DNA of 47,776 bases. Origin: Butyrivibrio fibrisolvens 16/4 (GTDB lineage: Bacteria; Bacillota; Clostridia; Lachnospirales; Lachnospiraceae). The notes under the pieces are model-generated. The model worked only from the letters and a program-made list of their open reading frames with translations, ran no database searches and was not told where the DNA came from. This document shows positions 3,273 through 23,949 of this stretch, in pieces. The stretch is taken from NCBI GenBank assembly GCA_000209815.1, contig FP929036.1:2574262-2622037 (forward strand), given 5' to 3'. Numbering within the stretch: the stretch's first letter is position 1; every line of letters begins with the position of its first letter. Both the position numbers and the translations under genes were made by a program.

Positions 3273-3358
3273 CAAAGCTTTACATTAACAATATAATCAT
3301 TCTCTTTCAGTCACTAGATGTTCCTTTCAGAGAATATTACATTGTTAATTAAGCTTTG
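3273..3358. repeat. Long imperfect inverted repeat between glmM and HPr
   Basis: Two arms of about 35 nt (3273-3310 and 3324-3358) are near reverse complements: both contain CAAAGCTT, TTAACAAT, TAAT and ATTCTCT blocks in matching order, with only small gaps. The loop is about 13 nt. It begins 3 nt after the glmM stop codon and fills most of the gap to HPr. No strong T run follows, so it is not a standard terminator. It may be an RNA-processing structure or a small palindromic element. Confidence 0.6.
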
Positions 3359-3361
3359 TAT

Positions 3362-4711
3362 TTACAGCATTGTCTTAGTAATTAATTCAGCTAACGCTTT
3401 TGCGTCGGCCTCGATTTCAGCCTGATCCTTGCCCTCAATCATTACACGAACGAGAGGCTCTGTACCTGATGGGCGGATAAGAACACGGCCCTCTCCGGCA
3501 AACTTCTCACCAAGCTTTTCGATTGCAGATGCAATCTCAGGATACTCCATGTAGCTTTCCTTCTTGTGGTTTGGCACCTTTGCATTAACTAGTGCCTGTG
3601 GAAGTACATCCATAATAGATGCAAGCTCTGATAAAGACTTTCCTGTTTCAACAATAACTCTAAGAAGGTGAAGTGCTGAAAGCAATCCATCTCCTGTGGT
3701 GTTGTCATCTAAGAAGATAACGTGACCACTCTGCTCGCCACCGATGTTGTAGCCGTTAGCAAGCATATTTTCCAAAACATATCTATCGCCAACCTTTGTA
3801 GCCTCTACATGAATGCCCTGTTCCTTTGCCATCAATGTGAAACCAAGGTTTGTCATTACTGTAACAACGCAAGTATCCTTTTTAAGAGTACCCTTGTCCT
3901 TCATGTGCTTTGCACAGATTGCCATAATCTGATCACCATCAACAAGGTGTCCCTTCTCATCTACAGCAAGCATTCTGTCGGCATCGCCATCAAAAGCAAG
4001 ACCAACCTGTGCATTTTCTGCAACAACGCGTGCCTTAAGCTCATCCATGTGTGTAGAACCACAGTTGCTGTTGATGTTTGTACCGTCTGGATTGTTGTGG
4101 ATTGTGATAAGCTCTGCACCCATTTCTGAAAGGCAGGCAACGCTAGTGCGATAAGAAGCACCCTCTGCACAATCGATAACGATCTTTAATCCTGATAAAT
4201 CAAGTGGCACTGTCTGCTTAAGGAAATCTACATACTCGCGACCAAGGTCGAATCTGTATTCTACCTTACCAATCTCTGCGCCAGTAGGAAGGTTTACTCC
4301 CTTCATGTCGCTTTCAATAAGTGCCTGAATCTCATCCTCAAGCTCGTCTGAAAGCTTGAATCCATCTCCATTGAAGAACTTGATTCCATTAAACTCCATT
4401 GGGTTGTGGCTGGCTGAAATAACTACGCCTGCATCAACCTTGTGCTTACGTGTAAGGTAAGCAATCGCTGGTGTTGGAAGTACTCCAACGTATACTGCAT
4501 TTGCACCAACTGAACAGATACCTGCCATAAGTGCTGAAGCAAGCATTGTACCTGAGATACGAGTATCGCAGCCAACAATAATTGTAGGCTGATGACTAGC
4601 CTCTTTTGTAAGTACATATGCGCCTGCCTGACCAAGTGCACGAGCAAGGTCTATTGTAAGTTCAGAACCTGCTACTCCTCTGACTCCATCTGTTCCAAAT
4701 AATCTTCCCAT
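3362..4711 (-). CDS. glmM: Phosphoglucosamine mutase
   Basis: A 449-residue alpha-D-phosphohexomutase of the usual GlmM length. It starts [12 protein letters not shown]. The catalytic phosphoserine is Ser101 in ISASHNP, the metal-binding loop is DGDADR at 241-246, and the sugar-phosphate loop [12 protein letters not shown] lies near the C-terminus. It interconverts glucosamine-6-phosphate and glucosamine-1-phosphate on the way to UDP-GlcNAc and peptidoglycan. It follows cdaR and cdaA on the same strand; this cdaA-cdaR-glmM order is conserved in Firmicutes, where GlmM binds and inhibits CdaA. The spacing to cdaR is about 30 nt, consistent with one transcript. Confidence 0.96.
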
Positions 4712-12112: not shown

Positions 12113-12642
12113 CACGAAAAGAATACAAAAGAATTCTCAGATGTGATTATTTAAGATATTCTAGTGATACTTCACTTTTAGGACGCATCAAAACCTATAA
12201 ACTTAAGCCAGGTTATGAATGGTGCCACTGGTACAGAAAGCTTTGCTATCAGAATAGCAAGCCATATCTCAAACCATTGGCATTTCTTACTCGCTTGCAC
12301 TTTCATAAGGTTTCTGTCAAATACGGAATTGATATTCCTAGTCATATTGCTCCTATTGGAGAAGGATTATTGATTGATCATTTTTCCTGCATAGTAGTTC
12401 ACACTGATGCTATCATCGGAAAGAATGTTACCATCAGACAGGGCTGCGTCATTGGAACAAATGGACGCGGGGTCCCTGTTTTAGAGGATGGTGTTGATAT
12501 GGGTTCAGGCTCAGCAATCATAGGGCCTGTTACAGTTGGAGCCGGCTCCATCATTGGTGCTCACGCTGTAGTCACCCACGACGTCCCAGCAGGCGCCACG
12601 GTCGTAGGTAACCCTGCTCGTATATTAGCTACAAATAATTAA
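12109..12642 (+). CDS. Hexapeptide-repeat acetyltransferase, serine acetyltransferase-like
   Basis: A 177-residue left-handed beta-helix acyltransferase. The C-terminal half has the CysE-like signature DIPSHIAPIGEGLLIDHFSC, VVHTDAIIGKNVTIRQGCVIG, and closing repeats ending in VPAGATVVGNPARIL. The N-terminus is short and helical (RRLLR-type, TRKEYKRILRCDYLRY) rather than the full CysE helical domain. With a glycosyltransferase directly upstream (4-nt overlap), O- or N-acetylation of a sugar is more likely than cysteine synthesis, but substrate choice cannot be read from sequence. It is followed two bases later by the structured repeat copy B. Confidence 0.85.
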   Translation: MTRKEYKRILRCDYLRYSSDTSLLGRIKTYKLKPGYEWCHWYRKLCYQNSKPYLKPLAFLTRLHFHKVSVKYGIDIPSHIAPIGEGLLIDHFSCIVVHTDAIIGKNVTIRQGCVIGTNGRGVPVLEDGVDMGSGSAIIGPVTVGAGSIIGAHAVVTHDVPAGATVVGNPARILATNN

Positions 12643-12643
12643 A

Positions 12644-12732
12644 AAGCTGGTAGGTATCAATCTCTTAGTATTGCTCAGCGAGACATCTAGTCGAGTAGAG
12701 TAATACTGAGGATTGAGACCGTAACCAGCTTT
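12644..12732 (+). repeat. Dispersed structured repeat, copy B (best-paired copy)
   Basis: Plus-strand fold: outer stem AAGCTGGT/ACCAGCTT, internal loop AGGTA on the 5' side and GACCGTA on the 3' side, then a stem of about 18 bp (TCAATC...CTC with GAG...GATTGA). At the top a loop region GCGA-GAC-ATCTA-GTC-GAG contains a 3-bp inner stem flanked by possible G-A pairs. It starts two bases after the acetyltransferase stop and ends with TTTCT, so it could also terminate that transcript. Copies A and C share both internal loops. Confidence 0.78.
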
Positions 12733-12899: not shown

Positions 12900-14174
12900 A
12901 TGGCACGCATTGATGCTGCGTACAACTATTTCATGACCACCTATGGCGACAACATAGGCTCTCGTTATGAATCCCATAAGAAAAGTGAATTACGCGACAC
13001 ATACAATAAAATAGTGAAGGCCAACAAGGACGCTCCTCTGTACAAGCTGAAAGAAACCGAGGATATGGGTCAGTTTGCCATTGATATTAAAGAACACGCT
13101 AATTCTATGGCTGTTTCAGTGTCAAATCTTGCTGCAGCGGGAGAAAGTGTTGAGGAAATCCTTAATAAGAGGATTGCTTCCTCTTCTGATCCTAACACTG
13201 TAGAGGCTGTCTTCGTAGGTGATGAATCCTCTAACACAGACGGATTTGATATTGATGTTCATTCACTGGCAAAGCCTCAGGTGAATGTTGGTAATTATCT
13301 TTCTCCTGATGGCCATAGCTTTGAGGAAGGCCAATATACCTTTGATTTGGACATTAAAAACCATTCCTACGAGTTCCAGTATAATGTTAATGCTGGCGAG
13401 ACTAATCTCACAGTTCAGCAAAAGATAGTCCGATTACTTAACTCTTCTGATGTTGGACTTAGTGCTTCTCTTGCTACCAATAGCGCTGGAGCAAATGCTA
13501 TCCAGATAGTATCCAAATCCACCGGCCTGCCTGAAGGAGAAAATTGTCTGTTCAAGATTTCTTCTCCTGTGTCATGGAGAGAGTTAAACACATTAGGTAT
13601 CGACCAGACTGTGCAGGAGCCTGTTAATTCCAGCTTCACACTTAACGGAAACGACCACGAATCCATGTCCAATTCATTCACAGTAAACAAGACCTACGAG
13701 CTTACTCTTAAGTCTCCTACAGATGGACCTGTTACTGTAGGATTAATGAAGGATACAGAAGCACTTACAGATGGTGTCAATCAGCTGCTAACCAGCTACA
13801 ACGGAATGATTGATATCGGATTGAAATATAACAATTCTCATCAGAACCGCACACTCTTTAATGAGATTTCTTCTATTGCAAAAGGTATGCAAAGCAGCCT
13901 GGAATTCGCAGGTATCTTTACTGATGGGCTTGGTCATTTATCACTGGATGCACATAGACTTTCAGACATCATTAACAGTCCTGATAAGGCCTCTGCATTT
14001 ACCACACTTAATGAATTAAAAAATGCCATCAATCTGGCGTCCTCAAAGGCCTCCATTAATCCAATGGCATACGTTGATAAAGCTATTGTTGAATACAAAA
14101 ATCCTGGCAAGACACTGACAGCTCCGTACGCTACCAGTGCATACTCAGGAATGATGATGAACTATCGTCTCTAG
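12900..14174 (+). CDS. FliD-like flagellar hook-associated protein, divergent
   Basis: A 424-residue protein, shorter than FliD and lacking its standard N-terminus. It nevertheless shows a FliD-like middle (FDIDVHSLAKPQVNVGNYLS, like the FliD segment with a conserved LAKAQ) and the C-terminal coiled region LTDGVNQLLTSYNGMIDIGLKY. The usual FliD C-terminal domain carries the same VxxxxxxYNxxI pattern. The C-terminus, MMMNYRL, is helical-poor. It may be a secreted filament-associated or capping-type protein exported through the flagellar system. GAAAGGAGGGACGTCTC precedes the ATG. Because a full fliD is present at 20816-23053, this is a second, specialised member. It ends at a bidirectional terminator. 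Confidence 0.68.
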   Translation: MARIDAAYNYFMTTYGDNIGSRYESHKKSELRDTYNKIVKANKDAPLYKLKETEDMGQFAIDIKEHANSMAVSVSNLAAAGESVEEILNKRIASSSDPNTVEAVFVGDESSNTDGFDIDVHSLAKPQVNVGNYLSPDGHSFEEGQYTFDLDIKNHSYEFQYNVNAGETNLTVQQKIVRLLNSSDVGLSASLATNSAGANAIQIVSKSTGLPEGENCLFKISSPVSWRELNTLGIDQTVQEPVNSSFTLNGNDHESMSNSFTVNKTYELTLKSPTDGPVTVGLMKDTEALTDGVNQLLTSYNGMIDIGLKYNNSHQNRTLFNEISSIAKGMQSSLEFAGIFTDGLGHLSLDAHRLSDIINSPDKASAFTTLNELKNAINLASSKASINPMAYVDKAIVEYKNPGKTLTAPYATSAYSGMMMNYRL

Positions 14175-23634: not shown

Positions 23635-23727
23635 GAGCTAGTAGCTATCAAGCTCTTAGTGTTACTCAAGCGAAACATTCTATAGTTGAGCGGAGTAATA
23701 CTAAGGCTTGAGAGCGTAACTAACGGA
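23635..23727 (+). repeat. Dispersed structured repeat, copy C (3' of csrA, opposite orientation)
   Basis: Plus-strand fold: a weaker outer stem GCTAGT/ACTAAC (one mismatch), internal loop AGCTA / GAGCGTA, a long stem TCAAGCTC...GGCTTGA, and apex GCGA-AAC...GTT-GAGCG, where AAC/GTT replaces the GAC/GTC of copies A and B. It begins right after the csrA stop when read from the csrA side, but the conserved orientation is antisense to csrA, unlike the other copies. Confidence 0.75.
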
Positions 23728-23949
23728 TTATAATAAATTCTTAAGTGCTTCGATGTCATCCATAGAAATCTTCTGAGCTTCTTCATTTTCTTTCTGAATC
23801 TCAAGATAAACTTCCTTGCGATATATGGAAACTTCTTTTGGAGCTGAAATACCTATTTTGACCTGATCACCGCGAACTTCAAGGACTGTAATCTCGATGT
23901 TGTTGTTGATCATAATAGCGTCGCCTGTTTTTCTAGTTAATGCCAACAT
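23728..23949 (-). CDS. csrA: Carbon storage regulator, translational repressor CsrA
   Basis: A 73-residue CsrA. It starts MLALTRKTGDAIMINNNIEITVLEVRGDQVKIGI and continues APKEVSIYRKEVYLEI, with the conserved Leu4/Thr5/Arg6 RNA-contact strand and the Arg near residue 44. It binds GGA-containing RNA hairpins; in Bacillus it represses flagellin translation and is held off by FliW. It starts two bases after the fliW stop (TAG CG ATG), so the two genes are coupled. The flagellin leader in this window has matching binding sites. Confidence 0.97.
   Translation of the reverse strand: MLALTRKTGDAIMINNNIEITVLEVRGDQVKIGISAPKEVSIYRKEVYLEIQKENEEAQKISMDDIEALKNLL

Follow-up and report, generated by a model that had tools for sequence, protein, structure and literature searches.

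The window, a 47,776-nt stretch of DNA, carries four copies of a dispersed hairpin whose stems covary around near-invariant internal loops, and this repeat is restricted to Pseudobutyrivibrio, the host genus in our analysis, within the scope of searches that scored few candidates per genome. With slightly more belief than doubt, we read it as a genus-specific, non-autonomous REP-like repeat whose hairpin strand is recognised by a putative factor and whose copies are used as terminators or intercistronic hairpins; how the element moves and any regulatory role that it may have are what we infer from its distribution, structure and surroundings.

A strand-specific hairpin with covarying stems and near-fixed loops

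The four copies occupy the following positions of the window.

12646-12730, + strand: copy 1, an 85-nt hairpin, model match
245-328, - strand: copy 2, intercistronic, model match
23637-23725, + strand: copy 3, flanked by fliW-csrA and flaG genes to which it is antisense, model match
3274-3356, - strand: copy 4, from an unfiltered scan of the window with a 98-copy model (45.9 bits, E 2.3e-11)

An earlier note on this DNA had placed three copies at 12644-12732, 246-330 and 23635-23727. The model matches bear these out within a few bases; its count of three missed the fourth copy in the window and a genome total of about 50. It had also observed that each copy abuts a stop codon, and each of the three does so. 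Copy 1 follows a hexapeptide-transferase-like gene, with a TAA stop ending at 12642, and precedes a FliD_C gene at 12900-14174. Copy 2 lies between an RmlD-like gene (328-1188, - strand), whose TAG at 330-328 supplies its last G as the first base of the stem, and the next co-directional reading frame, which starts near 213. Copy 3 reaches to within 2 nt of the csrA stop codon (23728-23730), in this case on the opposite strand. A phosphoglucomutase/phosphomannomutase-family gene (3362-4711, - strand) has its stop codon ahead of copy 4.

The unit is one long imperfect hairpin of ~85 nt (~105 nt with its conserved flanks), read on one strand, and as a whole it is an inverted repeat. At its base a 4-bp stem, variable yet paired, is followed by G-C and U-A pairs and then by an A opposite GUA; above this lie ~9 bp interrupted by an A.G mismatch, then a bulged U, ~13 bp and a small loop, and the apex consists of tandem G.A, a 3-bp stem and a short loop. 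Ordinary copies measure 82-90 nt, with variants of 47-55 nt and about 153 nt. Copies 1 to 3 align with the A, bulged U and GUA at common positions, and the internal-loop and apex motifs that the earlier note had described are present in all three; copy 4 retains the A opposite GUA and the G.A apex, with UU/AA replacing the GU/AC pairs. On the named strand the folds of copies 1, 2 and 3 have z-scores of -9.2, -4.3 and -5.1, and for none of them did any of 200 shuffles reach the same stability; copy 4 has a fold z-score of -7.9. The outer stem of copy 1 is 9 bp, lengthened by AAA/TTT.

We aligned 98 distinct copies, and standard pairs fill 96.2% of cells at 33 pairs, compared with 73.3% for shuffled partners and 31-45% for slid partners, in an alignment that was fitted to the structure and so is biased in its favour. 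Both-sided changes occur at 29 of the 33 pairs and the covariation score is 0.584 against 0.168, counts that related copies inflate; the contrast between paired and shuffled partners is large despite both effects. The loop positions are near fixed: the A opposite GUA is kept in 98 of 98 copies, the G, U and A of GUA in 97, 98 and 92, the bulged U in 98 of 98, and each base of the two apical GA steps in 83-90. These data uphold the proposal that the copies form one family with covarying stems and invariant loops. Outside the core, all six outer pairs are formed in 264 of 286 distinct copies, and this variable outer stem sits between conserved flanks and the conserved core.

The constraint is strand-specific, in keeping with the suggestion of selection on single-strand structure. 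In the paired columns of the named strand G.U outnumbers A.C by 226 to 22 (176 rows, after removal of 12 antisense shadow rows and of rows identical within an alignment; two of the alignments, A4 and A5, have at least 13 loci in common, so that some copies are doubled in this count), and 99 of the 226 G.U stem from a single pair at which G.U is commonest. Because G.U so far exceeds A.C, the fold of one strand must be constrained, a bias that would look the same for RNA and for single-stranded DNA.

Distribution within Pseudobutyrivibrio

The covariance-model search that the earlier note had proposed recovered many more copies. A model built from the three window copies returned 51 rows in the source genome, or 48 places after removal of three antisense shadows of strong copies, and a model built from 98 copies returned 58 rows, or 51 places without seven shadows; the 51 places are a lower bound because the genome search missed window copy 4. 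With the first model 47 of the 48 places scored 39.8-100.3 bits and one shortened copy 33.1, and such scores, set against no match outside the genus, exclude chance. In 2.4 Mb of a second species, G003, there are 117 copies.

In a set of 41 genomes, matches occurred in the source genome and in 22 of 24 other genus members, with 5 to at least 109 copies each. The two members that gave no match with up to 109 candidates scored, G007 and G020, have the most divergent FliW among the 28 found (81% and 73% identity), and 16 genomes of other families gave no match. With at most 11 candidates scored per genome, an order-level draw yielded 10 positives among 392 genomes, all of the same genus, and the 98-copy model yielded 2 positives among 397 genomes at family level and 1 among 398 at phylum level, these being the source genome and G013, again of the same genus; the three genome sets may overlap. 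A pattern scan of named genome contigs found at least 115 stretches, and every record among the 80 listed is titled Pseudobutyrivibrio. The viral contigs contained 0 exact pattern matches.

Dispersal and turnover at orthologous sites

Different places in different species, subfamilies, nesting and differences of cassette at a single site show that the element disperses. Of the 48 copies of the source genome, 27 have a syntenic place in G003, and we read 25 of these by eye. The G003 site is empty at the orthologues of L009, L023, L063, L071 and L075, carries an unlike copy, equally oriented, at L022 and L024, and holds a related copy with changed stems at L030 and L069. At one intergenic site the element is inverted between the two species (L008 and G003:C1:1691974-1692061), and at the G003 sites of L011, L025 and L078 a copy is nested inside an older one. 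Of 28 species that have the csrA locus, 7 carry the element at the site of copy 3, in all seven antisense to csrA, and three more species have apparent truncated remnants. No exact insertion boundary or clean target duplication was seen in the orthologous sites read by eye.

Orthologous sites can also combine an identical outer stem with an unlike core (L222/L224, L023/L159 and L011/L100), and L102/L110 is a half-replaced mosaic whose outer stem is mismatched. The outer stem is identical in 4 of 49 orthologous pairs with unlike cores, compared with 66 of 2,429 random pairs, a modest statistic. In the first 1.6 Mb of G003, 6 of 80 rows, belonging to two different subfamilies, carry an extra apical hairpin of ~68 nt.

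L261:17811-17962: G003 copy with the ~68-nt apical insert
L252:9170-9322: G003 copy with the ~68-nt apical insert
L307:1873-2024: G003 copy with the ~68-nt apical insert
L298:3742-3894: G003 copy with the ~68-nt apical insert
L302:1783-1936: G003 copy with the ~68-nt apical insert
L254:12032-12185: G003 copy with the ~68-nt apical insert
L215, L217, L225, L226 and L228 (3′ of csrA) and the G003 site of L015: second, GC-rich repeat

Several other features were noted. The ~68-nt apical hairpin resembles a mobile unit of its own. Mini-forms of ~19 nt at the G003 sites of L020 and L079 keep the flanks, an outer stem and CGTAAC and are without the core, which may reflect either deletion or a hairpin that predates insertion. 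The second repeat is a GC-rich hairpin of ~150 nt that occupies similar 3′ sites in other species, inside a terminator-like stem. Another repeat, whose ends resemble CTTCCCC...GGATGAGG, lies at the 3′ sites L209, L213, L227 and the G003 site of L026, and in two cases adjoins a truncated copy of the present element.

We compared copies at orthologous sites to separate constraint at the site from constraint during propagation. Among sites with flank identity of at least 90%, nine pairs of like copies (flank identity 90-97%) differ at 0, 0, 1, 0, 1, 1, 0, 0 and 4 positions over ~86 nt, a comparison biased toward conservation because the pattern that fetched many of the loci demands conserved bases; in the same set L102/L110 (first copy) and L022/G003 are unlike, and two rows compare neighbouring tandem copies. 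Across 16 orthologous pairs, two of which (L097/L131 and the nested L011 site) are imperfect as orthologues, 54 base pairs changed with 10-nt flanks included: 14 changes are compensatory, as at L008/L126 and L104/G003, 15 are one-sided yet paired, and 25 are broken. The claim that covariation is a mark of selection thus stands for a strand-specific structure and is weakened for selection at each site, where 29 of the 54 changed pairs remain paired and 25 do not.

Copies in different orientations to their neighbours further divide these influences. G.U pairs average 1.47 per sense copy, 0.76 per convergent copy (p 0.03) and 0.53 per antisense copy (p 0.003), and the lower values are expected because the other strand is transcribed there. 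The loops of antisense copies are as complete as those of sense copies (A 17/17, bulged U 16/17 and GUA 17/17, against 78, 75 and 67 of 78). This parity favours a propagating or cassette-exchanging factor that recognises the element strand.

Candidate mobilising agents

The transposase linkage that the earlier note had suggested looking for was not borne out, since the families tested do not track copy number. The Y1 transposase family PF01797 occurs in 10 of 29 genus genomes and is absent from the copy-rich G011, G012 and G016. The source genome has a lone RAYT-like tyrosine transposase gene (L202:1243-1863, - strand; G000:C1, about 2476082) that scores 80.1 bits against an NCBIfam cut-off of 80, with no element copy within its 3.3-kb locus, and 12 fetched Y1 loci contained no copy at E up to 1. 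A Y1 or RAYT mobiliser is therefore not supported, its presence being unrelated to copy number and its loci being without copies. Reverse transcriptase (PF00078), found in 15 of 29 genus genomes and absent from the copy-rich G011, G013 and G016, was set aside likewise as unrelated in presence to copy number. Regular expressions allowing gaps of up to 6 kb found no autonomous version with a long apical insert in the 2.4 Mb of G003.

Position at gene 3′ ends and terminator features

Nearly all copies lie between co-directional or convergent genes (116 of 117 in G003 and 45 of 48 in the source genome), with stop-codon distances that are approximate because the gene calls are crude (reading-frame length, and in G003 also codon usage). 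In the source genome 33 copies are sense between co-directional genes, 8 convergent, 4 antisense and 3 divergent; in G003, 76 are sense (with 3 more overlapping a called gene), 19 convergent, 18 antisense and 1 divergent, where the gene pairs number 1,578 tandem, 134 convergent and 135 divergent. Divergent pairs are thus avoided (p 0.004) and convergent pairs favoured (p 0.001), and within tandem pairs sense copies outnumber antisense copies by 109 to 22 (n=131, p about 5e-15). A replication-strand cause of this bias is inseparable here because nearly all scored tandem pairs (1,472 of 1,539) are on the leading strand; the 67 lagging pairs contain one copy, in sense. Many class I copies fit tightly between a stop codon and a Shine-Dalgarno sequence.

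Two kinds of outer context recur. Class Ia, 73 of 286 distinct copies, has a stem preceded by TGA and usually followed by GGA(T/C)T, with a G opposite a G in 71 of the 73; its commonest left flanks are TTAGATGA and TTAAGTGA. These conserved flanks outside the stem argue, for class Ia, against the outer stem being the target site. In class II, 126 of 307 copies, the outer stem is lengthened by at least 2 pairs, and 181 of 307 are without such an extension (counts in which some copies are doubled, as above); the sequence downstream of lengthened stems is richer in T (46% against 30% for the others). Between convergent genes, class II copies have a right T-tract in 6 of 15 cases (at least 5 T in the 8 nt directly after the hairpin) and a left A-tract in 11 of 15; antisense to tandem genes, a T-tract in the opposite direction would serve the adjacent gene in 6 of 9; and in sense, a T-tract by the same rule follows the hairpin in 5 of 24, or in 11 of 24 with a looser window. 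On account of these tracts some copies look like terminators with the element in loop position. The earlier view of the element as something beyond a simple terminator holds for its fixed loops and is qualified by the lengthened stems, which at convergent and antisense sites often have a T-tract toward the adjacent gene.

Relation to known repeat families

That the family went unrecognised in the earlier note agrees with Rfam 15, which gave 0 matches in the window at gathering thresholds; copy 1, searched at E up to 10, had five matches, all far below gathering scores. Titles and opening lines of abstracts on Pseudobutyrivibrio with palindromic or stem-loop elements describe no such element, the top results of wider literature searches held nothing relevant, and term searches did not find the genus named in the main text of RepRanger (PMC12306157) or in a human-microbiome structured-RNA study (PMC8040213). 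The suggestion that the element might be undescribed therefore survives for this family in the literature searched, and not for its kind, since REP-like and stem-loop repeat families are known.

GTAG-REPs, as sections of one report describe them, are high-copy palindromes of 20-40 bp associated with RAYT transposases and reported in Proteobacteria, Cyanobacteria, Chloroflexi and the PVC group (PMC3733652). The present element resembles them, as they appear in those sections, in being a high-copy palindrome 3′ of genes, mostly in co-directional or convergent intervals, in its GT pairs and its subfamilies with complementary stem changes, and in having termini able to supply a stop codon and a GTA(G/A) motif near the 5′ end (PMC3733652). 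Unlike them, it is about 85-105 nt long, its GT pairs with AC inside a longer stem so that only the A is unpaired, where theirs is an unpaired tag at the end of the palindrome, and it has no RAYT link (PMC3733652). Because size, tag pairing and RAYT link differ, we file it as REP-like and not as a GTAG-REP.

Stem-loop repeat families are the broad class that contains the present element. The SLS families, in the portions of their survey that bear on this comparison, are intergenic repeats with a common predicted secondary structure that probably act as RNA (PMC2267715). The present element is likewise repeated and intergenic with a shared non-random secondary structure, and differs in its strand-specific fixed internal loops and its cassette turnover at shared sites; Pseudobutyrivibrio is absent from the part of the survey's species list that we covered (PMC2267715). 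The stable stem-loops at gene 3′ ends inside operons that underlie selective RNA processing and stabilisation in Clostridium, as excerpts of that work present them, are similarly placed, and are defined by position and stability and not as one sequence or structure family (PMC8219983). MITEs are marked by terminal inverted repeats shared with an autonomous transposon and by target-site duplication; the present unit is an inverted repeat throughout, yet the 2.4 Mb of G003 yielded no autonomous partner and the sites read by eye no clean duplication. Integron attC sites were considered at the level of their consensus only and set aside.

Discussion

In the REP-like reading, the fixed loops would let a putative trans-acting factor recognise the hairpin of the element strand, whether as RNA or as single-stranded DNA, and the same factor would re-copy the hairpin; the loops would stay fixed even in copies antisense to the gene beside them because the factor reads the element strand. 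Insertions would persist 3′ of genes, at sites where they do no harm or are of use. A hairpin transcribed at such a site, with a lengthened stem and a T-tract, would serve as a rho-independent terminator, and other transcribed copies would form an intercistronic hairpin between a stop codon and a Shine-Dalgarno sequence that probably alters the mRNA processing, stability or translation of its neighbours. Against this reading, the searches turned up no mobilising enzyme, and the sites read by eye no exact insertion boundary or target duplication; a T-tract directly follows the hairpin in only 5 of 24 sense class II copies, and the statistic for a changed cassette under a retained outer stem is modest. 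The few differences between close orthologues and the low G.U content of antisense and convergent copies also fit selection at the site. An extended form of the proposal, which we consider improbable, makes the element a gene-free cassette and a new kind of mobile element, recognised as a single-stranded fold and written repeatedly into resident hairpin loops by a putative enzyme; its targets would be terminators, the element's own shortened forms and other copies. On this view the element would consist of the inner cassette, with the outer stem being part of the site.

Selection at the site is central to a different account, unlikely in our judgement though one to be taken seriously, in which the repeat is chiefly a cis-acting mRNA element under per-site selection: a protein or RNase specific to the genus would bind the hairpin, in a 3′-UTR or between cistrons, and the hairpin would thereby set the stoichiometry of the operon in the manner of selective RNA processing and stabilisation, with spread being secondary. 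The sense bias (109 of 131), the stop-codon-to-Shine-Dalgarno placement of many class I copies, the scarcer G.U of antisense and convergent copies, whose other strand is transcribed (0.53 and 0.76 per copy, compared with 1.47 in sense), the few differences at close orthologous sites and the compensatory changes at orthologous ones all speak for such a role, whereas the equally fixed loops of antisense copies, the 25 broken among 54 changed pairs and the many sites that are empty in a relative do not. The covariation could instead be largely mutational, with template switching at inverted repeats and gene conversion keeping the arms complementary under little structural selection. Parts of one report describe template switching as creating and maintaining RNA hairpins (PMC8794818), and hypervariable yet complementary outer stems on like cores, together with the L102/L110 mosaic and its mismatched outer stem, would fit. 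Such correction, however, would also erase the asymmetric A/GUA loop, the bulged U and the G.A, all near invariant, and G.U exceeds A.C about tenfold, which leaves this explanation decidedly improbable. Least credible, at the very bottom of our scale, is an ordinary family of rho-independent terminators with long hairpins: the 126 lengthened stems and their T-richer downstream sequence are as it would predict, but the 181 copies without extension, the near-invariant internal loops and the confinement to one genus are not, and a terminator scan at copy 1, under a rule admitting loops of 3-8 nt only, found none. The fixed loops largely refute this last explanation.

Compact, gene-free and strictly layered in structure, the REP-like repeat of Pseudobutyrivibrio offers a clean system for studying the spread of REP-like sequences in the absence of a RAYT and their possible conversion by hosts into terminators or operon-tuning hairpins. 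Shared sites that hold different cassettes make selfish spread and host use testable against each other, and the covariance model can be used to annotate many gene 3′ ends in an important rumen genus.
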